From NCBI GenBank assembly GCA_937929805.1, contig CALFUT010000008.1:1-64000 (forward strand): a stretch of 64,000 nucleotides of DNA. The letters are read 5' to 3'. The DNA is from an uncultured Pirellulaceae bacterium. GTDB lineage: Bacteria; Planctomycetota; Planctomycetia; Pirellulales; Pirellulaceae. The position numbers and the translations under genes are program-made. The notes beneath the pieces are model-generated. The model had not been told where the DNA came from and made no database searches. It was given only the letters and a program-made list of their open reading frames with translations. This document shows, one piece after another, positions 37,282 to 55,615 of the stretch (positions are counted from its first letter, which is position 1; every line of letters begins with the position of its first letter).

Positions 37282-38556
37282 ATGTTGCGATCAATCTTCG
37301 CTTTTACCTTGCTGTCCGTATTTTTGGGTTTCGATGCAACATCGCCAGCTCAGCAATGGACGCGATTTCGAGGGCCCAATGGAACGGGTGTTGTCGAAGG
37401 TGCCGATTTGCCGACATCGTTGGAGCAGCCGCTGTGGACGAAGAAACTGGCTGGCGTTGGCAACAGCTCGCCCGTTGCTTGGGGCGATCGGATCTTCGTG
37501 ACCAGTTGCGACATGCAGACGGCTGAGATTCGGCTTCAGTGCCTGTCATCGAAGGATGGAACCGAAAACTGGATCAAACTGTTTGAGTCCACTCCCTATC
37601 ATTTGCACGGTCGGAATACGTTTGCCGCGAGCACTCCTGCCGTCGACCAAGACCATGTCTACATGTGCGTAGCAGGTCTCGGTCATACCGTTTTGGTCGC
37701 GCTTGATCATGAAGGAGACGAAATCTGGCGGCGAGACTTCGGCAGCTTTGCCTCGTCGCATGGATTTGGCGCGTCCCCAATCGTCTATGGCGATCTGGTG
37801 GTCCTTTGCCACTCACAGGCAAAGGAGCAGTTGCCAGCCGGCGTCGCACCGGGGCAAAGCAAATTGATTGCTGTGAGTCGAACGACGGGTGAGGACGGTT
37901 GGTCGCTGGATCTGACGACGGGTCGAGTTTGCTACGGCGTTCCTTGCGTTTGGAAAGACGCGGATGGAAAAGAACAGTTGGTGAACTGCAACACGGGTGA
38001 CGGGTTTTACGGCGTTGATCCGAAAACTGGCATCAAACGTTGGTCAGCACTACCGTTTAAGAAACGAGTCGTAGCGACGCCTTTGGTGACGGGCGATCTG
38101 CTGATCGGAAGTTGTGGTTCGGGTGGCGGTGGAAACTACTTAGTTGCCATGAAGCCTCAGGAAATTGCCGCCATGGCGATTGAAGAAACCGAAAACGTTC
38201 AGCCCCAACCGGAATACACGGTTCGTTCATCCAACTACGTGCCCTGCCCTATTGCGGTTGGTGATTTGTTGTTCATCTTCAACGACAAGGGTGTGGTTCA
38301 ATGCGTCGATTTGAAAACGGGAAAGCCGCACTGGAAGCAGCGAGTGTCAGCAGGATTTTCAGGGTCTCCGGTCGCCAACGGAACGCACGTTTACGCGGCC
38401 GACGAAGAGGGAATCGTGTACGTGATCAAGGTCGGCAAAGCATTCGAGCAAGTAGGTACGTTCTCGCTTGGTGAACCAACGCGAGCTACCCCGATGATCG
38501 CTGGTGACAGGATTTTCTTTCGCACAGCCAGTCAATTGTTCTGCTTTGGAAAATGA
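37282..38556 (+). CDS. Exported PQQ-like beta-propeller protein
   Basis: 425 residues from the ATG at 37282, chosen because CAGGAG lies 5 bases upstream and a Sec signal follows at once (about 1-22, with cleavage near TSPAQQ). Several WD/PQQ-like blades are visible: WTRFRGPNGTGV at the start, then repeated patterns such as LVALDHEGDEIWRRDFG, LVNCNTGDGFYGVDPKTGIKRWSAL and VVQCVDLKTGKPHWKQ. This is the common planctomycetal 'PQQ-binding-like beta-propeller repeat' family, periplasmic, with no known enzymatic activity. No catalytic Asp or Ca site of true PQQ dehydrogenases is evident. The open frame upstream overlaps the YheT-like gene and is not used. Confidence 0.9.
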   Translation: MLRSIFAFTLLSVFLGFDATSPAQQWTRFRGPNGTGVVEGADLPTSLEQPLWTKKLAGVGNSSPVAWGDRIFVTSCDMQTAEIRLQCLSSKDGTENWIKLFESTPYHLHGRNTFAASTPAVDQDHVYMCVAGLGHTVLVALDHEGDEIWRRDFGSFASSHGFGASPIVYGDLVVLCHSQAKEQLPAGVAPGQSKLIAVSRTTGEDGWSLDLTTGRVCYGVPCVWKDADGKEQLVNCNTGDGFYGVDPKTGIKRWSALPFKKRVVATPLVTGDLLIGSCGSGGGGNYLVAMKPQEIAAMAIEETENVQPQPEYTVRSSNYVPCPIAVGDLLFIFNDKGVVQCVDLKTGKPHWKQRVSAGFSGSPVANGTHVYAADEEGIVYVIKVGKAFEQVGTFSLGEPTRATPMIAGDRIFFRTASQLFCFGK

Positions 38557-38590
38557 GAACGCTGATCGTTGCGGCGAAAGTTTGAAAGTC

Positions 38591-41500
38591 ATGTGGCAAT
38601 TCTGGATCGATGTTGGCGGTACCTTCACCGACTGTTTGGCTCAATCGCCCGACGGTCAAATGCATCAGACGAAAGTGCTTAGCTCGGGTGTCTTTAAAGG
38701 ACAGTTGCATCTGTCCGACCTGACGGATGTTGCTCGTGCGAATAACTCGAACGAGCCCACCGGCATGTGGGATGGGGCGGAGGTAACGTTGCTCAATGCC
38801 AAGGGCCAACCAATCTTCACGGCAAACGTTTTGTCCTCGAACGCAGGCGTGTTTAAGCTTGACCGTTCTATCCCGGCGGAGATCTCAAAAGCGAATTCGA
38901 CCATCGCCTACGAGCTGAATCCCCGACTGCACGCTCCGTTGGTGGCGATGCGAGTTATCGCTGGAGTCCCGATTTCTGATCCGTTGCCCGCCTGCACGGT
39001 TCATCTCGGGACGACACGCGGCACCAATGCATTGTTGACGCGATCGGGTGCTCGAACGGCATTGATCACAAGTAAGGGCCTGAGGGATTTTTTGACGATT
39101 GGTGATCAAGCGAGACCAAATTTGTTTCAGCTGGCCATTCAAAAACCTGAGCCGCTGTTTGAGCAGTCAATCGAAATCGAAGAACGTGTTTTGGCGGATG
39201 GAACGGTCGAGTGTCGGCCAGATGAGGCCAAGGTTCGTCAGCAACTGGTGAAATTGAAGGATGCCGGTATCGAATCGATCGCGATTTGCTTGATGCATGG
39301 CTATCGATACTCGCAACATGAACAGAATGTCGGGAAGATCGCAGACGAAATCGGTTTTGATGACGTGCGAGTGTCCCATGAAGTTTCTCCATTGATCAAA
39401 CTGATTCCTCGCGGCGAGACGACGGTTCTGGACGCGTATTTGAATCCGGTGATTGGGAACTACTTGGACGAAATTCAAGCAGGACTGTCGAACGGAAGTC
39501 GTTTGAAGCTGATGACATCCGCTGGCGGACTTGTCTCGCGCGAGCATTTCTCTGGAAAGGATTCGGTTCTGTCCGGACCGGCTGGCGGCGTCGTTGGAGC
39601 GGCTCGGGTGGCAACCAAGTTTGGTTTCGATCGAGTTATTGGGTTCGACATGGGAGGGACCAGCACCGATGTGTCGCGGTATGAATCCGTCGACGGTCTG
39701 GATCGGTTCGAACGAGAATACGAATCTCTAAAGGCGGGCATCCGCATCGTAACGCCGATGATGGCAATCGAAACCGTGGCCGCAGGAGGAGGATCGGTTT
39801 GCTGGTTTGACGGCACGAAGCTTTGTGTTGGCCCCGAAAGCGCTGGAGCCGATCCCGGGCCGACGTGTTATGGAAAAGGCGGGCCGCTCTCGATCACTGA
39901 TGTGAATCTTTTTCTTGGCCGAATCGTTCCGGATCAGTTCCCGTTTCCACTCGACCGCCAAGCAGTTGAGAATCATCTGTCACGAATGTGTAAAAAACTT
40001 GCTGCCGCAGGTTTCCACTATTCGCCGCTGGAACTGGCCGAAGGTTTTGTCAAAATCGCCAACCATAGCATGGCGACCGCGATCACAACCGTCTCGATTG
40101 CTCGTGGTTACGATCCGAATGACCATGTGCTGATGTCTTTTGGTGGTGCCGGAGCACAGCACTGTTGTGGCGTGGCGAACAATTTGGGGATGAGCCAAAT
40201 TCTCGACCACCCTCAAAGTAGCATCCTTAGCGCGGTTGGGATTCAAATGGCGGATCGAACCAGCCACCAGACTCGAGCCGTCCAAGAAATGTGCGATGAG
40301 CAATTGGAACGACGGCTGGATAGTGCGTTCGCTCAAATGGAAAGTCAAGCGACCGACCGACTGGTTTATGGCGACGGCAATTCGGACCAGCCGATCGTTT
40401 TGCGACGAAGGCTAGACATGCGGTACGCGGGAACCAATCAGTTTCTGACGATCGAGAGATCTTCCGGTGAAACGTGGGAGACACTGTTTCACCAACAGCA
40501 TCGCCAATTGTTTGGCTATGTTCAGGATCGGTCGGTTGAAGTGGTCGCGATGCGGGTCGAGGCAATTTTGGAAGGCAATCGGCTGACTCGATGGGCGCCG
40601 GTTTCAGAATTCGAACTGCTAAAACCGACGGATTTTCAGGACATGCACTTTGACGGCAAGACGTACTCTGCCGGGCGATTTCAAAGAGATCAGATCAAAC
40701 CGGGGCATTCCATTGCGGGGCCTGCCATTGTTTTCGATCGCTATTCGACCACGATCGTTGACCCCGGTTGGATCGCGAAAGCGGTCGGTGATGGGGCGTT
40801 TTTGATTGAACAAGCCGTTTCTGTCAATCAATCGGAGCTTCGTGTTACCGATTCTGCATTGAACGCTCCGGATCCTGTGCAGCTAGAGATCTTCAACCGA
40901 TCCTTTGCGACAATCGCCCGACAGATGGGAATTTCCCTGCAAAAAACGTCAATCAGCGTCAACGTGAAAGAGCGTCTCGATTTCAGTTGCGCTATTTTCA
41001 CGTCTCATGGAGATCTGGTTGTTAACGCTCCACACATTCCGGTCCATCTTGGGGCGATGAGCGAAACGGTTCGCGAGGTGATTCGGAGAAACCCAAGGGT
41101 TGTCGCTGGCGACGTGTTCGTCACCAATGACCCTTACGCCGGAGGCTCTCACCTGCCTGACGTCACGGTGGTCTCGCCTGTGTTCGATTCAGGCCAATCG
41201 TCACTACTGTTCTGGGTTGCCAGTCGATCCCATCATGCGGAAATCGGAGGGAAGGCCCCCGGTTCCATGCCGGCCGACGCGAGATTTTTAGCTGAAGAGG
41301 GAGTTCTGATTGACAATTATAAACTTGTCGATGCAGGAACAGAAAGGTTTGGTCAGCTTGAGGAAATCCTTGGAACATCGCCCTATCCTTCACGGAATGT
41401 AAGTGAAAATCTTGCGGACCTAGCCGCTCAAGTTGCCGCAAACCGATCCGGAGCAAAAGATTTACTGGGCTTGGTAAAGCAGCATTCTTTCGAAACGGTC

Positions 41501-42430
41501 CAGCGGTACATGCATTTCATGCGAACGGCCGCGGAAACGAAAGCTCGAGCCGCAATCGGGAAGCTACCTGATCACGAAATGAGATTTTCGGATCAATTGG
41601 ACAACGGCGCTAGAATTGTGGTGTCCATTAAGAAGATGGAGGATGGTCTTGATATCGACTTTGCGGGAACCGATGCGGTAACGCCCGATAACTTGAATGC
41701 CAACCGAGCCATTGTTTGCTCGGCGGTGATGTACGTGATTCGTTGTCTTGTCGATGAAGACATTCCACTCAACGAAGGGTTGCTAAGCCCGGTGACGATT
41801 CGCCTACCCGAATGTTTGCTAAATCCGAAAGCCGGTGGCAATCATCCGCACGACAGCCCAGCCATCGTGGGTGGGAATGTCGAAACATCCCAACGAGTAG
41901 TCGACGTGATTCTAGGCGCATTGGAAGTCGCTGCCGCCAGCCAAGGAACCATGAACAATTGGCTGATCGGTGACGATTCATTTGGCTACTATGAAACCGT
42001 TGGCGGCGGTTCCGGTGCAACTTACAAGGGCCCGGGCGTTGATGCGGTTCATACTCACATGACCAACACACGCCTGACCGATCCGGAGATTCTGGAGACG
42101 CGTTACCCTTGCGTCTTGCGAGAGTTCGCGATCCGGCACGGTAGCGGAGGTGCGGGCGAGAAACCGGGCGGCTGTGGGATCGACCGCGAAATCGAATTTA
42201 CTCGGCCTTTGACGCTGTCACTGCTTACGGGCCGAAGGAAATCTCGGCCTTATGGATTGGATGGTGGAATGGCTGGCCAAACAGGAGTCAATTGGTTGAT
42301 TGATGTTGATCAAACAACTCAGGAACTGCCTTGGCGGTGTGAGATTCCAATCTCACAGGGGCAGCGACTTCGCTTGGAAACGCCCGGCGGAGGTGGCGTT
42401 GGAGCCGGTAACTCAGGTTGCGTCGAGTGA
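38591..42430 (+). CDS. Hydantoinase/5-oxoprolinase, fused HyuA-HyuB
   Basis: 1279 residues from the ATG at 38591. Residues 1-680 are the HyuA (ATP-binding) half: DVGGTFTDC at the start, HLGTTRGTNALL, GFDMGGTSTDVS, GAGAQHCCGVA. Residues 740-1270 are the HyuB half: RSFATIARQMGISLQKTS, RLDFSCAIF, VTNDPYAGGSHLPDVT, then HDSPAIVGGNVETSQRV and a C-terminal GGGGVGAGN. The length matches single-chain 5-oxoprolinases, which hydrolyse 5-oxo-L-proline to glutamate with ATP; other members act on hydantoins or acetone, so the substrate is not certain. The open frame upstream overlaps the propeller gene; the chosen ATG lies 34 bases after its stop. Confidence 0.94.
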   Translation: MWQFWIDVGGTFTDCLAQSPDGQMHQTKVLSSGVFKGQLHLSDLTDVARANNSNEPTGMWDGAEVTLLNAKGQPIFTANVLSSNAGVFKLDRSIPAEISKANSTIAYELNPRLHAPLVAMRVIAGVPISDPLPACTVHLGTTRGTNALLTRSGARTALITSKGLRDFLTIGDQARPNLFQLAIQKPEPLFEQSIEIEERVLADGTVECRPDEAKVRQQLVKLKDAGIESIAICLMHGYRYSQHEQNVGKIADEIGFDDVRVSHEVSPLIKLIPRGETTVLDAYLNPVIGNYLDEIQAGLSNGSRLKLMTSAGGLVSREHFSGKDSVLSGPAGGVVGAARVATKFGFDRVIGFDMGGTSTDVSRYESVDGLDRFEREYESLKAGIRIVTPMMAIETVAAGGGSVCWFDGTKLCVGPESAGADPGPTCYGKGGPLSITDVNLFLGRIVPDQFPFPLDRQAVENHLSRMCKKLAAAGFHYSPLELAEGFVKIANHSMATAITTVSIARGYDPNDHVLMSFGGAGAQHCCGVANNLGMSQILDHPQSSILSAVGIQMADRTSHQTRAVQEMCDEQLERRLDSAFAQMESQATDRLVYGDGNSDQPIVLRRRLDMRYAGTNQFLTIERSSGETWETLFHQQHRQLFGYVQDRSVEVVAMRVEAILEGNRLTRWAPVSEFELLKPTDFQDMHFDGKTYSAGRFQRDQIKPGHSIAGPAIVFDRYSTTIVDPGWIAKAVGDGAFLIEQAVSVNQSELRVTDSALNAPDPVQLEIFNRSFATIARQMGISLQKTSISVNVKERLDFSCAIFTSHGDLVVNAPHIPVHLGAMSETVREVIRRNPRVVAGDVFVTNDPYAGGSHLPDVTVVSPVFDSGQSSLLFWVASRSHHAEIGGKAPGSMPADARFLAEEGVLIDNYKLVDAGTERFGQLEEILGTSPYPSRNVSENLADLAAQVAANRSGAKDLLGLVKQHSFETVQRYMHFMRTAAETKARAAIGKLPDHEMRFSDQLDNGARIVVSIKKMEDGLDIDFAGTDAVTPDNLNANRAIVCSAVMYVIRCLVDEDIPLNEGLLSPVTIRLPECLLNPKAGGNHPHDSPAIVGGNVETSQRVVDVILGALEVAAASQGTMNNWLIGDDSFGYYETVGGGSGATYKGPGVDAVHTHMTNTRLTDPEILETRYPCVLREFAIRHGSGGAGEKPGGCGIDREIEFTRPLTLSLLTGRRKSRPYGLDGGMAGQTGVNWLIDVDQTTQELPWRCEIPISQGQRLRLETPGGGGVGAGNSGCVE

Positions 42431-42495: not shown

Positions 42496-44196
42496 TTAGG
42501 GCTCAGATAGAACTCCATTAGTATCCGAGGCAGGGATTGCGTCCGAACCTGACGATCCCCGCAGAACTCGATCCCGAGCTGCTTGCCGAAATTTCATAAA
42601 TAAATCCGTCAGCGCGGCATCCGTCTCGGGCGTCAATTCTTTAAAATGAGAATGGATCAGTGATACTTGAGTCAAAGGTCCCTCCGCACTTGATTTCGCA
42701 GCGGATAGGCGACCAAAGATGGAGTCACTGGCCGGCGGAGTAACCGGTTTTCCAGCCGCATCGAAGTAACAAAATGCGATCCATTGATTCTCTCCGGTTT
42801 TGCGTGACATGGTGGTCACCACGTATTGCCAAGGGTCCGACGGATCTGCGGGAGTGAAGACGATGCGTTCTTCGTGATCCCATCCCTTAAACTGGTAATG
42901 CTTTGGAAGTTCTGACCACATGTTGAAGGGTTCAGCGATCGATCCGCTTGCGGTAGCGTCTGGTGATTGGTAGACCCAAGTTTCTTTTTGAAAGCCCTGA
43001 ATACCAGAGCCCGTGTACGATTTTGATCGAAACTTGTTTTCGATCGATGCCCAGTCGTCAATCGATTCCGGCATATCGTCACTCGCGAGCGTAACAACAT
43101 CGGCACTGCTTACAGAATCGAACGATCCCCCAGAAAGAAACGACAGAACACCAGCAACCAGAAGTAAGCCTGCCATACCCCAGCGGAATATCATTGAAGG
43201 GGGATCGTTGGTGATCGCTGCTGACGTTTGACCCACCGCCTGACCGGTTTCATCGACAAAAGGTCGTCCAGCGAGGAACGAGTTCCAGAACGCAGTGATA
43301 AAACGACCGAAGTCGTGTGAGCGACCCTCTTCGGGATTAACTGGACTGAATACGAAGTTAAAAAACTCAGCTGTGCTGAAGATCAACAGCGCCGTGCCTA
43401 ACAGCAGAAAAACGCGGAGCATGTTGTCGTTGACAGAGCCAGCTGTAATCTCCATCTCAAGAAAGAAATTCATCACCGGTAACAGCATCAGGTAAGCAGT
43501 GTTCAGTAAAACTGCCCATAGAAAACAGCTTGCTATTAGCAATGCTGTTTGAAATAGCTTTTTTCTTCCAACCGCAACGCAGATCAGTGCGAAAAAAATA
43601 AGTGAAAAAACGGACCCGATTCCAATGAAGGAGTCGGCATAAGGGAATGTTTCTTTGCCAAGAAATTCGAACGCGGAATCGGTTCGCACGTGAATCATTG
43701 CACCGCCCATCAAGGACATAAAGCGACTCGCCAGTTCGGCCGAGTACTCTTGCAACCGCGAACAGATTTCCAAGTCCAAGTTCAATGGTGGACGGATGAA
43801 AGCGACCAGTGGCAATACGGCGTAACCGACGCTGTGAACGCCCTCTCGATGAACGGTCGCGGACAGATAACTTGCGACCAACAACACAACGCTAACGCCA
43901 GTGAACCAAGGTTGTCCCAGAATTCCACCAGCAATGCCCGCAGCAACTGCACAAACGGCAAATAGAATGGACTTGATGGTAGCGCGATGAATGTTCGATT
44001 GACCCCACGGCCATTGCACTGCCGCGATTGCAATAGTTGCCAAAATGCCGATCAGATAAAGACCATAGTGAGGTCTAGAGCCTAGGTCCGTTACGTATTT
44101 GATCAACAAAGGCAGCTGAACCAACACGCCCAGCAAGTAGGGGGCCGCAAAAATCAGCGGAGAAGCTGGCTGGTCGGAAGTTTGAGCAGTTGACAC
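42496..44196 (-). CDS. Exosortase-like paralogue lacking all three catalytic residues
   Basis: 566 residues: about eight transmembrane helices (17-305), then a ninth (around 345-362) and a C-terminal soluble EpsI-like domain. It aligns by eye along its whole length with the exosortase U encoded directly upstream (shared elements such as VVLLVASYLS, LLNTAYLMLLP against FMNTVRIVTIP, and LLIFSTAEFFNFVF against LLLFSTDQLIQFVL). At the three catalytic positions the Cys is replaced by Phe190, the Arg by Tyr235 and the His by Asp257. It therefore cannot be a cysteine transpeptidase. It may assist or regulate the active twin, or bind sorting signals. It starts 68 bases after the stop of the active gene, so they probably form one operon. 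Confidence 0.85.
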   Translation of the reverse strand: MSTAQTSDQPASPLIFAAPYLLGVLVQLPLLIKYVTDLGSRPHYGLYLIGILATIAIAAVQWPWGQSNIHRATIKSILFAVCAVAAGIAGGILGQPWFTGVSVVLLVASYLSATVHREGVHSVGYAVLPLVAFIRPPLNLDLEICSRLQEYSAELASRFMSLMGGAMIHVRTDSAFEFLGKETFPYADSFIGIGSVFSLIFFALICVAVGRKKLFQTALLIASCFLWAVLLNTAYLMLLPVMNFFLEMEITAGSVNDNMLRVFLLLGTALLIFSTAEFFNFVFSPVNPEEGRSHDFGRFITAFWNSFLAGRPFVDETGQAVGQTSAAITNDPPSMIFRWGMAGLLLVAGVLSFLSGGSFDSVSSADVVTLASDDMPESIDDWASIENKFRSKSYTGSGIQGFQKETWVYQSPDATASGSIAEPFNMWSELPKHYQFKGWDHEERIVFTPADPSDPWQYVVTTMSRKTGENQWIAFCYFDAAGKPVTPPASDSIFGRLSAAKSSAEGPLTQVSLIHSHFKELTPETDAALTDLFMKFRQAARDRVLRGSSGSDAIPASDTNGVLSEP

Positions 44197-44264
44197 GTTG
44201 AATTCTTCTGGACTGTAAGAATGTGGATGGTGATCGAATTTTAGCGAGCTAATTTTGCACAGTG

Positions 44265-46172
44265 CTACTGTGGGAAGTTGGAAGCTTCACCTAACAAATC
44301 GTTACTACTGTTTGTGGTTGCTGAGTTCAGCGGTTCGGTAGTAGAGCCGCCAGCAGTCGGCAAGTTTTGCTTTTCAAGGAATCGCTGCCGAATGATCTCG
44401 CGAATGGCTAGATACCGGTCTCGAACTTCGGTTCTAAGATCGTCACTAATTGGGCCGTTGGTCTGAACAAACACTTGATTTTGATAGCACTCGCTCTGGA
44501 ACAATTTGGATCGCCACTGATGGGCCATGCGACCTCTAAGTCGCATAAAGTAAGAACCCACTCCACCCCATGTTGCAGGAGCGTTGAGTGCATCACCTTG
44601 AGCATCGAAAAAGCTGAACAACAAATAAGCGTGTTCGCCAGTTTCCTTTTTGAATGTAGCTTCGATGTAAGGCCACGGACGCTCTCCGCTTTGCGAAACG
44701 GTTTTCGAATTTGATTCGACTCGAGAGCGTTTAATCAGTTTCCAGCCAGCGTTCTTGTAGCATGTCGTCAGTTCGTGCCAAGCGGGAAACGGTTGATCGA
44801 ACGAAACGTAGGGCGAGCAACGCGGAGCACGGAACTGCCAGCCATCCGAACGCAGACCAAAGTCAGCACTTCGATTTCGAATCTCTTTCTTGTAATCAAC
44901 TTTTTGCCAGTTGGCGATCTCGTTTGGAATGTCTCCTTCTTCGAAGGGAATGGTTACATTTGGATCGAAGAAGTGAATTTTGATGTTCGGATTGGCTAGC
45001 GCCTTACCGACTTGACCGACTTGGACAACACCGCATAGGGCCAAGACCACCGCAGAAGTCCAGATTAAACCTTTGCTCGCAGTCGAGATGCTGCGACGCT
45101 TTCGCTTTGATGATTTCTTTTTCTTATTGAGTGACTTCGCCAGCCGAACGAAGATTCCTCCGTCTGGGTCTTGCGGTCCAAGCACGAACTGAATCAGCTG
45201 ATCGGTGCTAAAGAGCAGCAAGATTCCAGCGATCAAGACAGCGTATCCCAATAGTGCGTGGGCAAGACCATGAACCAGATCGATACCAAACCACTGCTGG
45301 GCGATCGGGATCGTTACGATCCGAACCGTGTTCATAAAAATGGACCAGAAAACGGCCGAGGCAATCACCAGAGTGGCTCTGGCCCCCATCAAACCGTACA
45401 GAAGAATTACGGCAGCGATTAGATATAACACAGGAATTGATGCCGCCATTCCAACAACGAAAGTGAACACTGCCAATGCGGCTGCCGCCAGAAACTGGTA
45501 CGTGTTCGTCTGAGCTCTTCGGAAGAATACAATCAACACCACTGCGAAGAAAAACAGCGTAAAGAACGACTGCACTCCACTGCACATCTCTTCAATTCCG
45601 TAGCCTTCGGTGCCCGGAACCCTGATCACGTTTCCTTCTCGATGGTGCTTAAGTCCGACTAGATCCAAAATCATGCTGGTGATACTAGCACTGACTCGCT
45701 GCAACCAGACGATCAGTCGCGTATCTTGACGCATTGGCAGCATCAAACATGTAAAGAAGGGCAGCGAGGCCAGCCCCAGACTTCCGAGTGATTCCCCATC
45801 AATCGTCCGCGTCAATAGGCTGGCCACCAGCAACATGACGCTGAACGCTGCAAACCATTGGGCCTGAAATAGAATACAGACAAGGCCACAGAACAGTCCT
45901 CCCACAAGCAAGATGTTACTCAACCAACTTCGTTGAAATGGGTTTTCTACGTCCCGTGGCCAACGCCAAAACGCGAAGACCGCAGTCGCCAGAACCGAAA
46001 ATGGAAAAAACTGGTAATGAGGCAATCCCGACAAGTCGCGGAAGTACAGCAGTAGCATGGGAAGCTGAGACGCAATCGCAATCGCATAAGGCAACGCAAT
46101 CTTGAACAACCCTTGAGACGAGGATGTCCGGCCGTCATCGGCGGGGTTCAGCGTGGTGGTCGAGGTGGCCAT
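44265..46172 (-). CDS. xrtU: Exosortase U with C-terminal EpsI-like domain
   Basis: 635 residues. Eight or more transmembrane helices span about 22-325 with the exosortase triad in place: Cys197 in GIEEMCSGVQSF, Arg284 in FMNTVRIVTIP, and His305 in HGLAHALLGY. After a basic cytoplasmic loop (about 348-362) and one more helix, residues 400-610 form a soluble EpsI/DUF3485-like domain (PFPAWHELTTCYKNAGW). Exosortases cleave PEP-CTERM-type sorting signals at the cytoplasmic membrane and usually accompany exopolysaccharide genes, as here. It is followed by an inactive paralogue. No substrate with a clear sorting tail is in the window. Confidence 0.9.
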   Translation of the reverse strand: MATSTTTLNPADDGRTSSSQGLFKIALPYAIAIASQLPMLLLYFRDLSGLPHYQFFPFSVLATAVFAFWRWPRDVENPFQRSWLSNILLVGGLFCGLVCILFQAQWFAAFSVMLLVASLLTRTIDGESLGSLGLASLPFFTCLMLPMRQDTRLIVWLQRVSASITSMILDLVGLKHHREGNVIRVPGTEGYGIEEMCSGVQSFFTLFFFAVVLIVFFRRAQTNTYQFLAAAALAVFTFVVGMAASIPVLYLIAAVILLYGLMGARATLVIASAVFWSIFMNTVRIVTIPIAQQWFGIDLVHGLAHALLGYAVLIAGILLLFSTDQLIQFVLGPQDPDGGIFVRLAKSLNKKKKSSKRKRRSISTASKGLIWTSAVVLALCGVVQVGQVGKALANPNIKIHFFDPNVTIPFEEGDIPNEIANWQKVDYKKEIRNRSADFGLRSDGWQFRAPRCSPYVSFDQPFPAWHELTTCYKNAGWKLIKRSRVESNSKTVSQSGERPWPYIEATFKKETGEHAYLLFSFFDAQGDALNAPATWGGVGSYFMRLRGRMAHQWRSKLFQSECYQNQVFVQTNGPISDDLRTEVRDRYLAIREIIRQRFLEKQNLPTAGGSTTEPLNSATTNSSNDLLGEASNFPQ

Positions 46173-47318: not shown

Positions 47319-47743
47319 CAGGTAACGCCCACTTATGAGGTTCGATTTAGCCAAAACATCTCAAAGCACAAAGCACTAAATTATCATGATAAGCCCGCAA
47401 AACAAATTTCATTCGCTTTGATTACGGGTTGGAATCGAGTGCCAGTTCGGATGCAATCATTCGAATGGTGTCAGATTGTGCTTGCGTGCCGTGCTGGCAT
47501 GAATCGAATGGGCTGGAGTCACCCTCTTTGGCTCTGGTACCCTCAGCGGCAATATTCGCGGCGAAACACACGAACCGATTCTTGGTTCGGATGGTTTTGA
47601 AGGAAGGCTGAATTGTAACAGGCGGTTGCAACGAGGTTGCCGCAATGACCTTTTGAAAGAGCTGCATGTCCGGACAAGGATGTCCGAAAACGATTGCCTC
47701 TGCCCAGGCAAGTCGTGTTGAAAAAACAGGTGAGTCGAGCGCA
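47319..47743. other. Intergenic stretch before the large secreted protein gene
   Basis: About 425 bases without a supported gene. An AT-rich patch at 47378-47395 (TAAATTATCATGATAAGC) could hold a promoter. TGTCCGGACA at 47667-47676 is a perfect 10-bp palindrome and GATGTCCGA follows 3 bases later, a possible operator; this is pattern only. Short open frames here have no family likeness. Confidence 0.45.
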
Positions 47744-50700
47744 ATGTTTTGCTCGTCCCGTCGGTGGCTATGCGCCTTTCTTGTCGCCACGTTTGCGTTG
47801 ATGATCGGCGGATGGACGCCTGTGGTCGTGGGTCAGAGGTTACTCGAAGCCGAAAGCGCGACCAGTGAGCAAGTAAATCTGCGACTGAGAGTTTCTTTGG
47901 GAGGCGGCACGGCTCGACGATGGGTTGGCACGATCTCAATCGAAGGGTCCGCAAAGTTCTCCAACGAATCGCCACGAGGGTTGTCGGCGGACGCGAATGC
48001 AGCGATGCAGTTGTTGCCGAACAGGATTGAAATTCGCCCAAGTGCTGAGACGAACTACAACGGGATTGATGTTTCGCTGACCGGATCTCCGGCATCGATT
48101 TTGAACGTCGATCTGGCTCCCGCTGATCAACCGGAGCAACGTCGGGCTTATGCGGTTCGCCTGAGCGACCTTGTGCAGACCGGCGACCATCGAGACCTTG
48201 ATCAAACGGGAAACCGTTGTTCGATTGAGCGAGTGCCCGGTGACCGGCTCAAATTTCAGATTGATCGAACCCATTTGATTTTTCATCCCGGTGAGCGGAT
48301 CAATTTTTCGCTGTCCGCGAATCGAACGCCGTTTAAGTCAAGCGCTTGTCGGTATCGCGTCGCGGTTACGAAGGCACGACAGACCAAGAGTCCGATCACA
48401 CCGTGGACGGCGACGGTTGCGTTGAACTGCGACGAGACAGGATCGGCCGCCGCGGTTCCAATTCGCTTAGAAGCTCCGATTGCTGAGGGAGTTTACGACC
48501 TTGCCGTCGAGCTTCAGCCGAGTGCTTTTTCCGCAGGCATGGCTAGACAGCCGAAAGTAACTCGCAAAGTTCAGTTCGTGGTGTTGGCAGATGCAGTGCC
48601 TCGTGAGCCAACATCGATGTTCAAACGAGAAGGTTGGAAACAGCACGCTAGGTTCTCTGCCTCTGAATTAATCGACCCTGGTAATATTGGTTGGTCAAAT
48701 CAGCTAACGAGCTCTATCACTCAGCTAAAGACGGGAGAATTTGGGCTCAAGGGTTCCGCTCATGGGTACGCGAACGCTCGCCGCCAGTTGGTCGATACCG
48801 TTGACGGAGCGGCGTTGCAGTTTGAACCCGGCGGCTGGCAAGCGATTCCTATTTCGGTTCCCGCGAGTAATGGTCCGTGCCTAATCGAAGTAGACTGCGT
48901 GGTCGACGGAGATTCTGCGTTAGGGATCAGCCTGTTGCAATTTGACGTTGCTGGTCAGGTTTCCTCACGGTGCCGAGATTCAGGTCTTATTTCCGAGCGA
49001 TCGATTGTTGAAAACGATTCGATCGCCAAACAAACGTATCGGTTGTACCACTGGCCAAATGAATCGGTGGCGTGGTTGGTGATTGCCAATCGTCACCCAA
49101 GCCAAAATTCAAAAGTTATGGACGTTCGCGTCCTGACGGGCCCGTCTCGGATCCCGATCTTGAACGCGTCGAATGCGAAAGGTTCGAAATCAAGTCAGCC
49201 AGCGTCGGACCTACCTACCAGTTCCAGCGTGGCAAGGCGAGGCATGATGGCATTGGTTGAGTCACCGGCATTCACAGACAATTTCGGCGCAAGCGAGTAC
49301 ATGGATTCATCGATGGGCCAGCCATTGGATGATTGGGTTACGTTCTATCAAGGAGTCGATCGTCTGGTACAGCACTTGAAAGCGCGCAATTTGGCGGGTG
49401 CGTTTGTTGCAGTGGCGGCCGATGGAAGTGGTTTGTATCCGAGCCAAACGTTGCAGCCGGGGCCGCTTTATGACACGGGCTGTTTTCTGGGGAATGGGAA
49501 CGACCCAATTCGTAAGGACGTGGTCGAGTTGATGTTTCGAATGTTTGAACGAGAGCAGTTAAAGCTGGTTCCCGTTTTGTCGCTCAATGGACCACTGCCG
49601 GGAATCAGTTCGACGGGTGAAGCTGAATTGGTTGACTACAACGGACTGTCGTTGCCGCCGGAAGGAGACAATCGATTGCCTCGGCACAACCCGATAGCTC
49701 CCGCGGTTCAAAATTCCGTGGAGCAAGTCGTTGCGGAGCTGGTTGAACGGTATCAACATCATGATTCGTTTCGCGGCGTCGCGATTGCCTGCCGGCCGGA
49801 TACGGTGGCGTTGCTGCCGGGCGAACATTGGGCTTGTGACCAACTGACGATGGAACGTTTTCTGGCGTCGGTCAATATCGATGACGTGGACCGAGACAAC
49901 CTTCAGACTCGTGAGGATATCGCTCGCTTTTTGGCCGGGCCGCAACGTAAACGTTGGTTGGCTTGGCGAGCGGCTCAGATGTCGGATTTTTACCAGCGAT
50001 TGGGAAGTATCGTTAGCGAGAAATTGGCGGCTGGCACACTTTATCTGGCTCCGATTGATTTGTATCGGAACGCGGAGGTTGCTGCTTCGCTGAATCCTGC
50101 CCTGCACTCATCCCCAGATTATCGAAGTGCCATGTTAAAGCTGGGGTTCGACTCATCTTGGTTGTCTGAGGATACAGGAAACCAGTCAATCGTCGTGCTG
50201 AACCCGCACCGCATTTCACCAAGTGATTCACTCGCGTCGCAGCGGGTCGATGCTCACGTGTCACACCTTGATCAGATGAACGATCTGTTTCGACGTCGTA
50301 AGGATTCAGGTGACTTGTTTGTCCATCGCAGCAATTGGGTCCATTTTGCTCAGCTGGAACAAGAGCCACCATTCAAAAATCAGCAAGCACCGTTGATGCG
50401 TCGGCAACAGTTGATGCCCGCAGGGGCTTTGAACGGGCGTCGGTTTGTCGAAAGATTATTTGCGACCGATGCAAAACTGCTGGTCGATAGCAGTTGGGCG
50501 ATTCCGGTCGTCGAAGATGAGCAGCTGACCGAACTGAGTCGAGCATATGTGCAGCTGCCTTCAGTTCCATTTGCAGACGTTGTGGCGGTTGATTCGGATG
50601 GCGTATCAAAAATTCTCAATCGGTCGCTGCCAGTTGTGGTCAGACAGGCCGCAACAAAAGGCGGCGTTTGGTTTTACGCGGTGAACGCTTCGCCGTGGCC

Positions 50701-52051
50701 AATCAACGTTCGTGTTCAATTGGACGGATCGCAGTCTGTCGAAAGAAGGTCTGACGGAGATGCCGACGATCGTGTTGAGTCGTCGTTTGTCTCGCTGTCG
50801 GAAAGTTTAATTGATTCGAAAGCCCTGAAACCGTTCGAAGAAGGCGGCAATCGTTTCGTTGCGTTTATGGTTCCGCCATGGAGCTTGGTCGCCGGGCGAT
50901 CCGATGATGTGAAGGCGGGTTTGAGTAATTACTCGATTGAATTCCCTGTGGATGCCGATCTGCAACTTAAAAAACGAATTTATCGCCTTCAGTCTTTGTT
51001 GGTTCGATCAACGGAAACGCCGCCGCTTGACGTCCTGACCAACTCGGGCTTCGAGACGGAAACGGTAGAAACCGCGTCGCGCGATGGAGTGACGGGCTTG
51101 GCCGCTGGTTCGACGGTAGCCGGTTGGACCAATGGTCCTAATGGTGGCGTGGGACGTGTGGGTCAGGAAAACGGCGGCAAGAGCGTGCAGCTTGAAACGG
51201 CAGATGTGTACGATGGTGATCGAGCGATTCGGCTTACCAACGAATCGAACACGCCGGTTTGGGTTCGAAGTAACGAGTTCTCCGCGCCTGAAACGGGCAG
51301 GCTTTCAGTGTCCGCTTGGTTGAAAATCGATCAGCCAGATCTGCCGCTGCGGATCTCGCTCGAGGGTGAATCGGGCTCTTCGACCTATTATCGATTTGGA
51401 GAAATCGGCGGGCGGGTCTCGGCAGACGATGGCAATCAAGCAGGCTCACAATGGCAGCGATTTGCTGTCCACTTTGACGACTTACCGATTGAGAATTTGG
51501 ATCGGCTGCGAGTCGGATTCGACTTGATGGGGCCGGGTTCGGTGATGATCGATCGCGTCGAGATTTTCGATCGTTGGTTTGACGAGAATGATTCGAAAGC
51601 GATTACGCAGTTACTCGCGACGGCCAGCACTTTGCTGTCGACGCCGGCCACTTACGATCGATGCCGACGGCTGTTGGAAAGCTATTGGCCTCGGTTTCTA
51701 ACCGAACATTTCGAAGATCAATTTGGACAACTCGCGGGTAACGACCAGTCACCGGCATCGGTCGGACAAGAGGTTGGCAAGCAAGGCCAGAAGTTACGTG
51801 CGCGCTCGGTTTCTTGGCCACTGAAAAAGCCCCTGCTTAAAACGCCGTCATTCACAAAGCCCGTCGACGAATCAACCGAGCATGATGGGCAGCCGCCTCG
51901 AAAGGCGATTCAACAATCCATCGAAAAGTCGGAATCGGGTGCCCATTCTGAACGACCAAGGGCTACGGCATCGGGGTCATCAAGCGGCAAACAGAAATTC
52001 CGCTTTCGCAGCGTCTTTGCCCCTCGCGCGCCAGATTCGACCAAGCCGTAG
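47744..52051 (+). CDS. Very large secreted protein, GH10-like/carbohydrate-binding plan, unknown function
   Basis: 1435 residues from the ATG at 47744, chosen because a Sec signal follows (SSRRWLCAFLVATFALMIGG, cleavage near VVVGQ). Residues 30-330 look like beta-sandwich modules. Residues 480-830 resemble a TIM-barrel glycosidase-like domain: WVTFYQGVDRLVQHLKARNLAGAFVAVAADGSGLYPS, FEREQLKLVPVLSLNGPLPG, VEQVVAELVERYQHHDSFRGVAI. Around 1130-1290 a carbohydrate-binding-like module occurs (VLTNSGFETE, AIRLTNESNTPVWVRSNEF, ISLEGESGSSTYYRFGEI). The C-terminus is polar and basic (KQKFRFRSVFAPRAP). Catalytic Glu pairs cannot be assigned. It is transcribed towards the glycan cluster. Confidence 0.8.
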   Translation: MFCSSRRWLCAFLVATFALMIGGWTPVVVGQRLLEAESATSEQVNLRLRVSLGGGTARRWVGTISIEGSAKFSNESPRGLSADANAAMQLLPNRIEIRPSAETNYNGIDVSLTGSPASILNVDLAPADQPEQRRAYAVRLSDLVQTGDHRDLDQTGNRCSIERVPGDRLKFQIDRTHLIFHPGERINFSLSANRTPFKSSACRYRVAVTKARQTKSPITPWTATVALNCDETGSAAAVPIRLEAPIAEGVYDLAVELQPSAFSAGMARQPKVTRKVQFVVLADAVPREPTSMFKREGWKQHARFSASELIDPGNIGWSNQLTSSITQLKTGEFGLKGSAHGYANARRQLVDTVDGAALQFEPGGWQAIPISVPASNGPCLIEVDCVVDGDSALGISLLQFDVAGQVSSRCRDSGLISERSIVENDSIAKQTYRLYHWPNESVAWLVIANRHPSQNSKVMDVRVLTGPSRIPILNASNAKGSKSSQPASDLPTSSSVARRGMMALVESPAFTDNFGASEYMDSSMGQPLDDWVTFYQGVDRLVQHLKARNLAGAFVAVAADGSGLYPSQTLQPGPLYDTGCFLGNGNDPIRKDVVELMFRMFEREQLKLVPVLSLNGPLPGISSTGEAELVDYNGLSLPPEGDNRLPRHNPIAPAVQNSVEQVVAELVERYQHHDSFRGVAIACRPDTVALLPGEHWACDQLTMERFLASVNIDDVDRDNLQTREDIARFLAGPQRKRWLAWRAAQMSDFYQRLGSIVSEKLAAGTLYLAPIDLYRNAEVAASLNPALHSSPDYRSAMLKLGFDSSWLSEDTGNQSIVVLNPHRISPSDSLASQRVDAHVSHLDQMNDLFRRRKDSGDLFVHRSNWVHFAQLEQEPPFKNQQAPLMRRQQLMPAGALNGRRFVERLFATDAKLLVDSSWAIPVVEDEQLTELSRAYVQLPSVPFADVVAVDSDGVSKILNRSLPVVVRQAATKGGVWFYAVNASPWPINVRVQLDGSQSVERRSDGDADDRVESSFVSLSESLIDSKALKPFEEGGNRFVAFMVPPWSLVAGRSDDVKAGLSNYSIEFPVDADLQLKKRIYRLQSLLVRSTETPPLDVLTNSGFETETVETASRDGVTGLAAGSTVAGWTNGPNGGVGRVGQENGGKSVQLETADVYDGDRAIRLTNESNTPVWVRSNEFSAPETGRLSVSAWLKIDQPDLPLRISLEGESGSSTYYRFGEIGGRVSADDGNQAGSQWQRFAVHFDDLPIENLDRLRVGFDLMGPGSVMIDRVEIFDRWFDENDSKAITQLLATASTLLSTPATYDRCRRLLESYWPRFLTEHFEDQFGQLAGNDQSPASVGQEVGKQGQKLRARSVSWPLKKPLLKTPSFTKPVDESTEHDGQPPRKAIQQSIEKSESGAHSERPRATASGSSSGKQKFRFRSVFAPRAPDSTKP

Positions 52052-52129: not shown

Positions 52130-52885
52130 TCAGCTTTGCCGCAGAAAGTACTGAGGAATCTTTCTGAATGGTTTGGTGAATCTCAAGCCAAACGGAGGTC
52201 TCAAACCATTCTCGATCCACGCGACTTTGTCGGCCGAGTTCGCATTCATGCGGTTTTCGATTGAGGCATTGCTTTCACCACCTACTCGCATTTTCACGGC
52301 GACTTCAGGAATGTAGCCAACACTGATTTGATTACGAACCATTAATCGAACCATGCATTCGTAGTCGGCCGCCGACCCATGATCAATTCGATAGTCACCG
52401 AATTTGTCGTAGATTTCGCGTTTGATATAAACCGTCGGGTGGGGCGGCATCCAGCCGAAGCGGAATTTGCTGACAAAATAATCGCCCGATTTCCAGTAGC
52501 GAATGACGCGATCAAGATCCTCAAAATCGACGTAAGTTAGGTCCGCGTAGACGGCGTCGTAGTCGCCACTTTGAAATTTTTCCTGCACTCGCTGGATTAC
52601 CGACTGGTCCGCAAACAAGTCGTCAGCGTGAAGGAAGCCAACGACATCGCCGGTGGATGCCGCGATTCCTTTATTCAAGGCATCGTAAATCCCGGAATCC
52701 GGCTCCCGAATTGCAATGTCGATCGTGTCGCGATTTGCTTCGATAATGTCAGGGGTGCCATCGGATGACATTCCATCGACCAAGACATGTTCAAGGTCGG
52801 AGCAATCCTGATCGGCGACGCTCTTGATCGCATCGGCAATCGTCGCTTCTCGGTTGTAGACAGCGGTAATGACAGAAATTTTCAA
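52130..52885 (-). CDS. Family 2 glycosyltransferase (WcaE-like)
   Basis: GT-A fold glycosyltransferase, about 251 residues. The start is probably TTG ending at 52885, with GAGG 5 bases before it, giving KISVITAVYNREATI at once; the longer frame would overlap wecB. Nucleotide-sugar motifs are visible: VDGMSSDGTPDII (about 36-48), REPDSGIYDALNKGI, and the DxD-like LHADD at about 84-88. HPTVYIKREIYDKFGDY and HGSAADYECMVRLM are also typical of this group. It is expected to add one sugar to a lipid-linked or surface oligosaccharide at the membrane. It lies directly downstream of wecB. Confidence 0.9.
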   Translation of the reverse strand: MKISVITAVYNREATIADAIKSVADQDCSDLEHVLVDGMSSDGTPDIIEANRDTIDIAIREPDSGIYDALNKGIAASTGDVVGFLHADDLFADQSVIQRVQEKFQSGDYDAVYADLTYVDFEDLDRVIRYWKSGDYFVSKFRFGWMPPHPTVYIKREIYDKFGDYRIDHGSAADYECMVRLMVRNQISVGYIPEVAVKMRVGGESNASIENRMNANSADKVAWIENGLRPPFGLRFTKPFRKIPQYFLRQS

Positions 52886-52907
52886 TGGAGCCTCTTTTGA
52901 TCGCTGG

Positions 52908-54044
52908 CTACTGGAGGAATTCCTTGACGGTATCCGCAATCCGTGTTGCCGCTTTACCATCGCCGTAAGGATTTTTTGCCTGAGCCATCTTTTCGTACGC
53001 TGCCTGATCGTTGATCAGCGTATTGACGTTGGCAATGATGTTGTCGGCGACTGCTCCAACAAGCTGGACCGTTCCCGCATCAACACCTTCTGGTCGCTCG
53101 GTCGTGTCACGCATGACAAGAACTGGCTTGCCAAGCGATGGAGCCTCCTCTTGAACGCCGCCAGAGTCGGTCAGAGCAATTCGACAGTGATTCATCAACA
53201 TCAAGAACTCGGAATATGGTTGAGGCGGAATTAGCTTGATATTGGCAAACTGCCCAAGGGTGTCATAAACCGGTTTTTGAACTTTCGGATTCAGGTGAAC
53301 CGGGTAGACGAACAACCACGTGGGATGAGCTTTTGCCAGTGTCGAAAGCGCCGTGCAAATCTCGTCAAAACCTCCACCAAAGTTCTCGCGTCGATGGCCC
53401 GTTATCAACACGTATGGTTTTTGCGTGAAATCCTCGCCAATTACTTCGATCAGTTTTGCCTTTAGCGGAGCTTGGTTTTCAGCCGACTCTTGGCGAGCGA
53501 TTTCCAGATGCAAGGCATCGATCACCGTGTTGCCCGTGACGTGAACCGTACTTTCATCCACCCGCTCATGTAGCAAGTTCGATTTGCTTTTTTCTGTCGG
53601 CGGGAAGTGCAAGCTGACTAGCGGGCAGGCCAGTTTGCGATTGGCTTCTTCAGGAAACGGGGATCGAATGTTTCCGGTCCGCAACCCTGCTTCGACATGC
53701 CCGACAGGAATGCCCCGATAAAAGCAACAAAGTGCTGCCGCGAAGACAGTTGTCGTGTCACCCTGCACCAGTGCCATATCGGGCTTGGTTTTCTCCAGCA
53801 GTTCATCGATTCGAGTGATCAACCGAGCTGTCAGCGAGGGCAGCGTTTGGTTGGGCTGCATGACTTGGAGATCATGGTCAACCTTGATTTCGAAAAGGTC
53901 CACGACTTGTTGCAGCATCTCTTTATGCTGCCCCGTCGAGATCACGATTGGTTCGAGGCCATCGGCCGCTTCGATGGCTTTCACCACCGGAGCCATCTTG
54001 ATTCCCTCGGGGCGCGTACCCATGAAGATTGCAATTTTTTTCAT
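52908..54044 (-). CDS. wecB: UDP-N-acetylglucosamine 2-epimerase
   Basis: 378 residues, full family length. It interconverts UDP-GlcNAc and UDP-ManNAc, supplying ManNAc for surface polysaccharides. The GT-B-like fold is recognisable from MGTRPEGIKMAPVV at the start, QGDTTTVFAAAL, GHVEAGLRT, FPEEANRKLA, VTGNTVIDAL, the conserved VLITGHRRENFG, LTDSGGVQEEAPSLGKPVLVMRDTTERPEG and a C-terminal NPYGDGKAA. The catalytic Asp, Glu and His positions of the family all appear intact. The two-gene unit with the GT2 downstream has 22 bases between. Confidence 0.97.
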   Translation of the reverse strand: MKKIAIFMGTRPEGIKMAPVVKAIEAADGLEPIVISTGQHKEMLQQVVDLFEIKVDHDLQVMQPNQTLPSLTARLITRIDELLEKTKPDMALVQGDTTTVFAAALCCFYRGIPVGHVEAGLRTGNIRSPFPEEANRKLACPLVSLHFPPTEKSKSNLLHERVDESTVHVTGNTVIDALHLEIARQESAENQAPLKAKLIEVIGEDFTQKPYVLITGHRRENFGGGFDEICTALSTLAKAHPTWLFVYPVHLNPKVQKPVYDTLGQFANIKLIPPQPYSEFLMLMNHCRIALTDSGGVQEEAPSLGKPVLVMRDTTERPEGVDAGTVQLVGAVADNIIANVNTLINDQAAYEKMAQAKNPYGDGKAATRIADTVKEFLQ

Positions 54045-54196
54045 GCTCGGTAAGTGTTTTAAGATTCGCGATAAAGGTTACGTTGGGCCTTCGGCAACTC
54101 AGTTCCCGGCACTCTAACATATAGCCGCGTAGTTGCATAATTCCCTAAAGAACCAAGTGGTTTGCGGTGATACAATAGAAAATTAATTTTCTGAAT

Positions 54197-55615
54197 TTAC
54201 CTTCTGGTGCGAGCAAGTGATTCACCGACCGCAATCGCGTATGCAGCCGAGCTGTTCTCAGTATTCTTGTTCTCCACTTTCAAATAATATTGGCCTGCCG
54301 CCAAGTTGCGGATGTACAAGTGTTCGAGGTTGTCTACTTCGCTGTCGCTTCGTTCGATTAGTAGATCAGGGGCGTCTGGCTGCATTCTGTAGAGCTCTAG
54401 CTTTAAGTCAGCCAATGAAGTTTTTGGTAAAAATTCGCCCGGTGCTTCACTACCGTTGGTCACGGCCAAGTTCCATGTTAATACCACCGACAAAGTTAGG
54501 GGGCGTGTTTTGGGTCGTGATTGAAAAGTGTAAACCCTCGAATCGCCCGGTGGCAGATTGCCATTTCGATCCCAACCGGCCGGGGTGTGACGTATCTTGG
54601 ATTTACCGGCGTTTAGCGTGCCGGGCCAGCGTCCATTTTTTTGAATTTGGTAGCTGTTAAGCAGATTGATTTCGCCGGCGCCATAAACCGTATCAAGCGG
54701 CTGGCTTTCGGAGTGACTCCAAGAGGGGAACTCCTCTTTGGTTGCTCCCGCTAATAAAATTGCTTTCATGGTGGTGGGTTTTACCGCGTCCGTTTTTGCG
54801 CCGGTTTGGTGCAAGACTGCGGCACATGCACTGACGACGCTGGTGGCTCCGCTTGTACTGTGCACACCGGTGGTCACGGGTCTAGGGGCGACGATGTCAA
54901 CGGTGAGCCGTCCTTTGCCGTTGAGGGTGGTCTTGCCGGACGAGTGTTCACCATCGCTGCGGCCAACGCCGATTACGTTGTACGCTTGGATGAGAAGAGC
55001 TGGAACTTTACTGTTCGCTTTGTTGTTTGCGCCGACAACGGTTGTCATTTTGGAGTTTGCGATAACGTAGTCCAGACGCTGCAACGCGTTTTCGGCTAAC
55101 GCTTTCGTAAAGGCATTGGACGTATGGACGATATAGCTGTGGGTTGAAACATCAAAAGGTTGAGGCCTCGGCATCTGGTTTGGGGTTCTGTCACCCGGAT
55201 GGTTTGTTCCCAATTGATTGAAAATCCAGTTGTTCGCACCCGCAATCGCGATAGGCGGGGAGCCGCGTTTGCCAAGTCCATCGGCAATTCCGACACCGTT
55301 GGCGTACATCGCGATTCCTAGAGAGGTCGCGTGCGCGTTCTTGCCCTGGTTCAAAGCAAACGGTGAGACAAATGTTTTCCCTTTGAATTGAGGAGCCTTT
55401 TGATCAGGAGAAAACGAGACACCGCGGCCGATGCTCTTGTCGGTGCGCTCACTTTCGACATGCAAAAATCGGACGCCGGTTCCATTGGTTCGTTGCTTTC
55501 CAGCGATTTTTTGCAGACGCCCTTGTCCAATTGCCACGTTTTGGGCAACTGAAGAATTGGGGGCAGCGAATGCCATGACAAAAAGCAAGGCTGCAAGAAA
55601 ATTGAGGTAGTTCAT
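54197..55615 (-). CDS. Exported subtilase-like (S8) protein with doubtful activity
   Basis: 472 residues with a Sec signal (1-24). The body follows the S8 subtilase plan: His95 in NAHATSLG where HGTH is usual; TTVVGANN (191-198) for the strand ending with the oxyanion Asn; IGVGRSDG, VDIVAP; and Ser259 in SGATSVVSACAAVL for the GTSxAxP motif. The N-terminal Asp motif (VAVIDTG in active enzymes) seems to be GVRFLHVESE, with no Asp. A C-terminal beta domain (about 350-465), ending like a PPC domain, follows. I infer a secreted subtilase relative that may be inactive or use another acid. It stands alone, divergent from the SGNH gene. Confidence 0.7.
   Translation of the reverse strand: MNYLNFLAALLFVMAFAAPNSSVAQNVAIGQGRLQKIAGKQRTNGTGVRFLHVESERTDKSIGRGVSFSPDQKAPQFKGKTFVSPFALNQGKNAHATSLGIAMYANGVGIADGLGKRGSPPIAIAGANNWIFNQLGTNHPGDRTPNQMPRPQPFDVSTHSYIVHTSNAFTKALAENALQRLDYVIANSKMTTVVGANNKANSKVPALLIQAYNVIGVGRSDGEHSSGKTTLNGKGRLTVDIVAPRPVTTGVHSTSGATSVVSACAAVLHQTGAKTDAVKPTTMKAILLAGATKEEFPSWSHSESQPLDTVYGAGEINLLNSYQIQKNGRWPGTLNAGKSKIRHTPAGWDRNGNLPPGDSRVYTFQSRPKTRPLTLSVVLTWNLAVTNGSEAPGEFLPKTSLADLKLELYRMQPDAPDLLIERSDSEVDNLEHLYIRNLAAGQYYLKVENKNTENSSAAYAIAVGESLARTRR

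Follow-up and report, generated by a model that had tools for sequence, protein, structure and literature searches.

A predicted pseudo-exosortase encoded directly behind exosortase U in an uncultured Pirellulaceae bacterium, and its recurrence in related genomes

Why would a bacterium keep, directly behind the gene for a protein-sorting enzyme, a full-length copy that has lost the residues needed for catalysis? The question is raised by a 64,000-nucleotide (nt) stretch of DNA from an uncultured Pirellulaceae bacterium (contig CALFUT010000008.1, assembly GCA_937929805.1), hereafter called the window. On its minus strand lie xrtU, encoding exosortase U (44265 to 46172; 635 amino acids [aa]; ATG start), and then a paralogue of XrtU (42496 to 44196; 566 aa; GTG start). 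Exosortases depend on a Cys, an Arg and a His as catalytic residues. We find that the paralogue has, by its sequence, the makeup of a maintained pseudo-exosortase and that comparable genes recur in related genomes.

XrtU carries the triad as Cys197, Arg284 and His305, as an earlier note on this DNA had read it and as the triad columns of our alignments confirm. Across 53 aligned XrtU rows, neither C197 nor H305 varies, and R284 is nearly constant, one row having Cys in place of Arg. The paralogue aligns with XrtU over nearly its whole length by BLASTP (23% identity, 636 alignment columns, E 6e-48) and over 529 columns by profile-profile comparison with hhalign (probability 100, E 6e-68), which bears out the view that it is a full-length relative, EpsI-like domain included. 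BLASTP, MAFFT and hhalign agree in pairing C197 with F190, R284 with Y235 and H305 with D257, the three replacements first noted, and they place no intact Cys/Arg/His elsewhere in the protein; this agreement rules out a misaligned triad. In the nearest orthologue (locus L121) the triad columns read Leu, Tyr and His; with His present in the third, the losses common to both orthologues, which we call type I, are those of Cys and Arg alone.

Both proteins pass the NCBIfam equivalog model for the exosortase U C-terminal region (XrtU_C, NF033780; cut-off 40), with 142.9 bits for XrtU and 83.9 bits for the paralogue, and both pass Pfam Exosortase_EpsH (PF09721; cut-off 25.7) with 96.8 and 30.3 bits, respectively, indicating an EpsH-like membrane domain in each. 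The exo_archaeo model TIGR04178 (cut-off 23) is passed by XrtU with 29.3, whereas the paralogue gave no match to it up to E 1. The paralogue thus resembles a typical exosortase U in its two-domain architecture, similar length, model cut-offs passed and adjoining typical XrtU, and differs from it in lacking Cys, Arg, His and the TIGR04178 match. Because its triad columns read F/Y/D, we do not class it as an active exosortase. It is a homologue of an enzyme, has lost the catalytic residues, keeps the predicted fold and is under purifying selection, as expected of a pseudoenzyme; on this sequence evidence it is a pseudo-exosortase that retains the membrane and EpsI-like domains and for which Cys/Arg/His catalysis is impossible.

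The L121 locus belongs to a second genome of the same genus (G401, an uncultured Pirellulaceae metagenome-assembled genome [MAG]) and holds the orthologous xrtU-paralogue pair in identical order. The type I paralogues of the two genomes share 65.0% aa identity over 565 residues at 36% nucleotide difference, with a ratio of the proportions of nonsynonymous and synonymous differences (pN/pS) of 0.28; the xrtU orthologues show 74.4% aa identity and a pN/pS of 0.23. A ratio of substitution rates (dN/dS) is not given for the paralogue pair because its synonymous sites are saturated. When the window paralogue was mutated at random to half or to the full observed divergence, a mean of 10.5 or 17.8 stops appeared, compared with 0 in the actual gene. 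These results support maintenance of the paralogue by purifying selection, as had been suspected from its intact 566-aa frame lying 68 bases from xrtU. A random degenerate copy confined to one strain is ruled out by the L121 orthologue, its pN/pS and the absence of stops, and the survey described below adds degenerate genes from further genomes.

Within the genus of the window, an XrtU_C match is present in 25 of 28 genomes, a Mariniblastus-type xrtU in 24, and the region downstream of it is visible in 22. From the maps, which were read by the analyst, a second XrtU-like gene lies directly 3' of the Mariniblastus-type xrtU in 5 of these 22 genomes: the window genome and G401 (type I), and G396, G402 and G417 (type II; loci L136, L130 and L146), which are Mariniblastus sp. 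MAGs. The triad columns of the type II proteins read T/Y/Q, I/F/A and V/L/T, and the two that were scanned (L130 and L136) gave no NCBIfam match at E ≤ 0.01. A 9-transmembrane-helix gene that follows xrtU in G404 (L092) has no NCBIfam match and is absent from the XrtU-like rows.

Beyond type I, a degenerate XrtU-like gene lies directly 3' of xrtU in seven genomes, three of type II, one of genus g302 and three of type III, and the gaps between directly adjoining degenerates and xrtU measure 3 to 121 nt. The type III loci (L140, L153 and L169) come from three genomes of one other genus and have G/E/N, G/E/N and N/L/N in the triad columns; a triad-bearing xrtU precedes in one genome, and in two a contig end cuts off the part of xrtU that would hold the triad. 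The type III protein of L140 scores 40.9 on NF033780 (cut-off 40). In the g302 genome (G469; L252), a G/H/G degenerate starts 7 nt after a triad-bearing xrtU, and a search with the G469 degenerate through the remaining four genomes of its genus found active xrtU alone in two and nothing in two. Selection appears to act on these proteins too, with a dN/dS of 0.17 for the type II pair L130/L146 (versus 0.08 for the accompanying xrtU) and of 0.11 for the type III pair L140/L153, and the same mutation simulation on three degenerates gave means of 8 to 18 in-frame stops per gene (lowest 1) where the actual number is 0.

More distant arrangements were also found. In the genus containing Rubripirellula, 5 of 22 genomes carry, 4.3 to 6.6 kb downstream of an active xrtU, a degenerate on the same strand whose three columns read CRP, CKS, SRP, NRA or NRP; in all five loci it lies between a gene that we label Wzc-like (its product matches AAA_31, and one of the two scanned has a Wzz match below threshold) and a tetratricopeptide repeat (TPR) gene. 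The named strain Rubripirellula obstinata CECT 8602, a member of this genus, has a related protein of 618 aa in which Cys and Arg are kept and His is lost. In genus g301 (15 genomes), Cys alone is kept in five proteins and two of the three residues are missing from another three, and a Verrucomicrobiales MAG (L166) has a C/C/R degenerate upstream of an active xrtU. Further degenerates are found in L111, L112 and L113 (G427 and G425), with a gene of family F3 (TPR matches where scanned) directly behind. As a side observation, the degenerate is followed at once by a TPR-repeat protein of one family in L261 (12286-15710), L262 (10184-13410), L111 (5979-9227) and L112 (7480-10848); the two genes overlap by 4 nt in L261 and L262, and the L111 TPR protein weakly resembles the PrsT model of the XrtA system.

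The counts from the collection of XrtU-like genes are lower bounds. It yielded at least 26 degenerates, which we sorted into 12 groups; 11 lack all three triad residues, 14 lack two and 1 lacks one, so that 15 of the 26 keep one or two. Two of the 26 are truncated (L270 and L275), and the count leaves aside L272, which has a single substitution (C/S/H), and a 155-aa fragment from L275. The MAFFT row set took proteins of at least 240 aa, identical ones once, giving 124 rows, 100 with C/R/H and 24 others, 13 of them degenerates. The rows dropped from the 24 were end-of-locus pieces (L145, L148 and the first genes of L153 and L154), a 248-aa C-terminal piece (L020), short EpsI-like-only proteins (L010, L011, L012 and L014) and single substitutions (L151 and the second gene of L154). 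The single substitutions stand in otherwise typical proteins (L151/L258, His to Gln; L154/L259, Arg to Cys); both are assigned to one genome, G503, that also has intact XrtU copies. The short proteins, from other Planctomycetota families, have 247 to 348 aa and match the EpsI-like domain weakly, lacking the exosortase catalytic columns; a search of neighbourhoods for weak XrtU-like open reading frames (ORFs) returned these four, the weak rows L013 and L015, and otherwise matches of E 0.2 or worse. Three exosortase-like proteins (L172, 9155-12265; L176, 9944-13054; L187, 231-3389) are 1037 to 1053 aa long compared with the usual 550 to 700, perhaps through a domain fusion.

What the degenerates have lost is concentrated at the active site. 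We scored those columns of the membrane domain that at least 85% of 117 active proteins share, leaving out the triad because it had served to pick the degenerates. Across the 26 degenerates, five columns flanking the pocket (A196, S198, G199, N281 and G309) survive in 30 of 130 cells, compared with 243 of 390 cells for 15 other conserved columns, and the flanking columns are the less well kept in 12 of 12 groups (Wilcoxon p 0.0005); the 26 proteins are a search collection rather than a random sample, and both the groups and the flanking columns were chosen by the analyst. The surroundings of the pocket have been lost selectively, not as part of a general loss. G309 survives in 2 of 26 and S198 likewise in 2, and N281, which never varies in active proteins, is retained by the window paralogue and by 7 of 26 degenerates overall. 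Outside the pocket, P146 is kept in 20, H176 in 18 and D150 in 16 of the 26. Over 20 conserved columns of the C-terminal domain, type I keeps 12 to 14, and types II and III keep 6 to 7.

The phylogeny leads us to favour several origins for the degenerates. A quick tree of 74 proteins requires at least five state changes for 13 degenerates; a careful tree of 45 proteins requires four for 12 degenerates, with two forced by well-supported branches and three to five in the bootstraps. One ancestral duplication for all degenerates is rejected, as 0 of 200 bootstrap trees have a single change, and the careful tree nests the proteins of R. obstinata and G578 within a different XrtU clade (100/99). 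Types I, II and g302 group weakly (55/82, careful tree), where long branches meet and long-branch attraction may play a part, and these types near that of the window may have a single origin. The quick tree sets the paralogue outside 22 Mariniblastus-type active proteins (Shimodaira-Hasegawa-like approximate likelihood ratio test, 95), a placement that the careful tree does not resolve. A recent copy of the neighbouring xrtU is unlikely because the paralogue does not have the 42-residue insert of its own xrtU, and the quick tree also speaks against it; the approximately unbiased (AU) test does not reject a duplication of xrtU within the lineage of the window and G401 (p 0.138), which leaves rejection of a recent copy probable but not proven.

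That insert lies at about residues 220 to 261 of the window XrtU, between the helices carrying Cys and Arg, and is predicted to form two extra helices. It is also present in nine XrtU relatives (L121, L122, L124, L127, L128, L131, L132, L133 and L149), and the remaining listed Mariniblastus-type XrtU proteins are without it. XrtU combines the membrane exosortase domain with a C-terminal EpsI-like domain (about residues 418 to 600), and we counted hydropathy peaks for nine membrane helices in XrtU and eight in the paralogue. On the minus strand, xrtU runs from 46172 to 44265 and the paralogue from 44196 to 42496. A terminator scan of the 68-nt gap between them (44197 to 44264, minus strand) found no terminator-like site, and its sequence has a purine-rich AGAAGAA shortly 5' of the GTG of the paralogue; in L121 the corresponding gap measures 78 nt. 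We infer a single transcript for the two genes, which these features fit.

AlphaFold (AF2) gave confident models for XrtU (predicted local distance difference test [pLDDT] 84.2, predicted template modelling score [pTM] 0.82) and for the whole paralogue (pLDDT 88.8, pTM 0.87). With the models compared by helix order, the Cys column lies just N-terminal to helix 201-216 in XrtU and helix 196-210 in the paralogue, the Arg column inside helices 264-295 and 214-246, and the His column at the start of helices 302-331 and 255-282. A sequence search of the PDB with XrtU returned no exosortase structure, its eight rows at E 0.32 to 0.77 being SH2 domains and a transposase, and a Foldseek search of the PDB with the paralogue model gave 0 matches at E ≤ 0.001. 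PEP-CTERM tails contain a transmembrane segment, and for EpsI-like domains we know of no activity. For the C-terminal domain of both models, VIA-align placed SciW with the Rhs1 transmembrane domain at the top or tied for it (Z 9.0; 120 and 122 residues at 3.8 and 3.7 Å; 8 to 9% identity in the best rows), in searches that are not independent as the two proteins are homologous, and with a score for which values below 8 can be chance. MOG1, PsbP and DcrB folds were matched in the list for the paralogue only (Z 7.1 to 9.0). Any kinship of the EpsI-like domain with SciW (an Eag chaperone), MOG1, PsbP and DcrB would lie in its predicted fold, and a common fold shows no function. According to the title of its PDB entry (6xrr), SciW holds a transmembrane segment. 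The likeness is a lead for this reason, as such a segment is also found in PEP-CTERM tails.

In the genome of the window (G000), XrtU_C matches at E ≤ 0.01 are confined to the two genes, and PF09721 matches at E ≤ 0.001 to xrtU (in two pieces) and the paralogue; XrtU is therefore the one recognisable active exosortase of this genome. It stands alongside 27 PEP-CTERM matches (TIGR02595) at E ≤ 0.01. Each type II genome has one further exosortase elsewhere. In two other members of the genus, G406 and G407 (completeness 91% and 84%), 30 and 26 PEP-CTERM matches were found and no PF09721 or XrtU_C match, either because contigs are missing or because the sorting enzyme of these genomes goes unrecognised.

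We think it probable that the paralogue is a conserved pseudo-exosortase that is made and works with XrtU as a noncatalytic partner in the handling of PEP-CTERM proteins, given the lost site, the conservation elsewhere, the selection, the position after xrtU, the recurrence, the sole recognisable active exosortase and the 27 PEP-CTERM matches. The protein would be transcribed with xrtU, as the gene arrangement suggests, and inserted in the same membrane, where, to go by gene position and recurrence, it may contact XrtU. It might then bind the C-terminal transmembrane tail or the acceptor of that tail, or it might set XrtU activity through a heteromer. We raise more tentatively, as a possibility we would not yet bet on, that several planctomycete lineages have a two-component exosortase, XrtU having been duplicated more than once to give a dead subunit, with recognition and catalysis split between homologues; the dead subunit would bind the PEP-CTERM tail or acceptor through the retained membrane groove and the SciW-like periplasmic domain. 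The earlier note had extended such an arrangement to the U-type system as a whole. That proposal is too broad: of the genus genomes whose downstream region is visible, 5 of 22 have the second gene, which makes it a recurrent accessory and no fixed part of the system. Judged from sequence, pseudo-exosortase U proteins are a recurring class, accessory in the genus of the window.

Several observations weigh against a partner role. In 17 of the 22 genus genomes with a visible region, xrtU has no partner gene, and XrtU therefore does not need one; L111 and L112, over the stretch read, have a degenerate but no active xrtU. Sequence change is faster in the degenerates than in the accompanying xrtU, and distant pairs have a higher pN/pS (0.45 for L130/L136 and 0.54 for L140/L169, with synonymous sites saturated). 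Type I has lost H466 and C471 of the C-terminal domain, which 94% and 93%, respectively, of 93 active proteins retain, and this domain may therefore also have changed its job. Its fold match, with a Z of 9.0 at best, is close to the level rated middling.

The loci without an active xrtU would suit a paralogue that has left protein sorting for exopolysaccharide assembly or export, using the exosortase fold as a frame for a membrane scaffold or a binder of lipid-linked sugars. Polysaccharide genes surround the pair in the window, a GalU-like gene adjoins the pair in L130, and similar surroundings are seen in L261, L262 and L263; to these can be added the Wzc-like and TPR flanks in the genus containing Rubripirellula and a GDP-mannose dehydratase gene preceding the degenerate in three of five g301 loci compared. 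Active exosortases occupy the same type of locus, however, so the setting does not discriminate, and the place of types I, II, III and g302 directly 3' of xrtU and the retention of both domains, the EpsI-like one included, make this explanation an unlikely one in our judgement. Quite unlikely, too, is a decoy or inhibitor that competes with XrtU for PEP-CTERM tails or holds it inactive in a heteromer. A fold kept with its site lost, as described for iRhoms and like pseudoproteases in the abstract of PMC3149277, and the accessory distribution would suit it, but its gene would lie right behind that of its supposed target, an arrangement that a subunit fits at least as well.

The faster evolution, the patchy occurrence in the genus and the AU result, which leaves a duplication in the window/G401 lineage possible, are what a decaying or neutral duplicate would show. 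Such a duplicate is very improbable in view of a frame intact in two genomes at 36% nucleotide difference with a pN/pS of 0.28, the lack of stops where 10 to 18 are expected on average, the selective loss of conserved columns, the missing 42-residue insert and the comparable partners in other genera. We give as little credit to an enzyme with another mechanism in which other residues substitute: the membrane-domain positions persisting outside the pocket (H176, D150 and P146) and the Cys or Arg kept in some degenerates (g301 and g341) would be compatible with one, yet the site columns vary by type (F/Y/D, I/F/A, G/E/N, N/L/N), leaving no common new site there, and G309 and S198 are almost always gone.

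The noncatalytic partner that we favour has counterparts in kind among known systems. GPI transamidase, a eukaryotic complex, cuts a C-terminal signal and replaces it with an anchor, using one catalytic and several noncatalytic membrane subunits; it is not homologous to exosortases, and the complex considered here is putative. The iRhoms are also eukaryotic, have a fold unrelated to that of exosortases and have clients known from experiments. According to the abstract of PMC3149277, they are conserved membrane proteins related to an intramembrane protease in which key catalytic residues are absent. The likeness to iRhoms and rhomboid pseudoproteases lies in conservation after loss of the catalytic residues and in the role proposed here, exerted by binding clients or the active enzyme. 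In the open-access literature searched (titles and abstract starts, a scope outside which most subscription papers fall), no dead exosortase partner was found; "exosortase U" or "XrtU" occurred in information-theory usage only, and "exosortase" together with "pseudoenzyme" gave nothing.

The surroundings of the pair are of the usual kind for exosortases, which are commonly set among polysaccharide genes. From 52130 to 61498 on the minus strand lie genes for two glycosyltransferases, a UDP-GlcNAc 2-epimerase, a hexapeptide transferase and an acyltransferase-SGNH protein, with other ORFs on both strands between them. A hydantoinase A/B-type gene identified by Pfam (38504 to 42430, plus strand) converges on the pair as a neighbour outside the system; its family (F5) adjoins xrtU in many genus members. 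A 1461-aa ORF near the pair (47666 to 52051, plus strand) has no Pfam match at E 0.0001.

One consequence concerns annotation, as the equivalog model assigns the name exosortase U to proteins without a catalytic site, the window paralogue scoring 83.9 against a cut-off of 40. The other concerns protein sorting itself. To our knowledge, how exosortases choose their tails and which group is attached to the new C terminus are open questions, and a dead partner occurring in nature, next to the one active exosortase that can be recognised in its genome, would offer a direct handle on tail choice and attachment.

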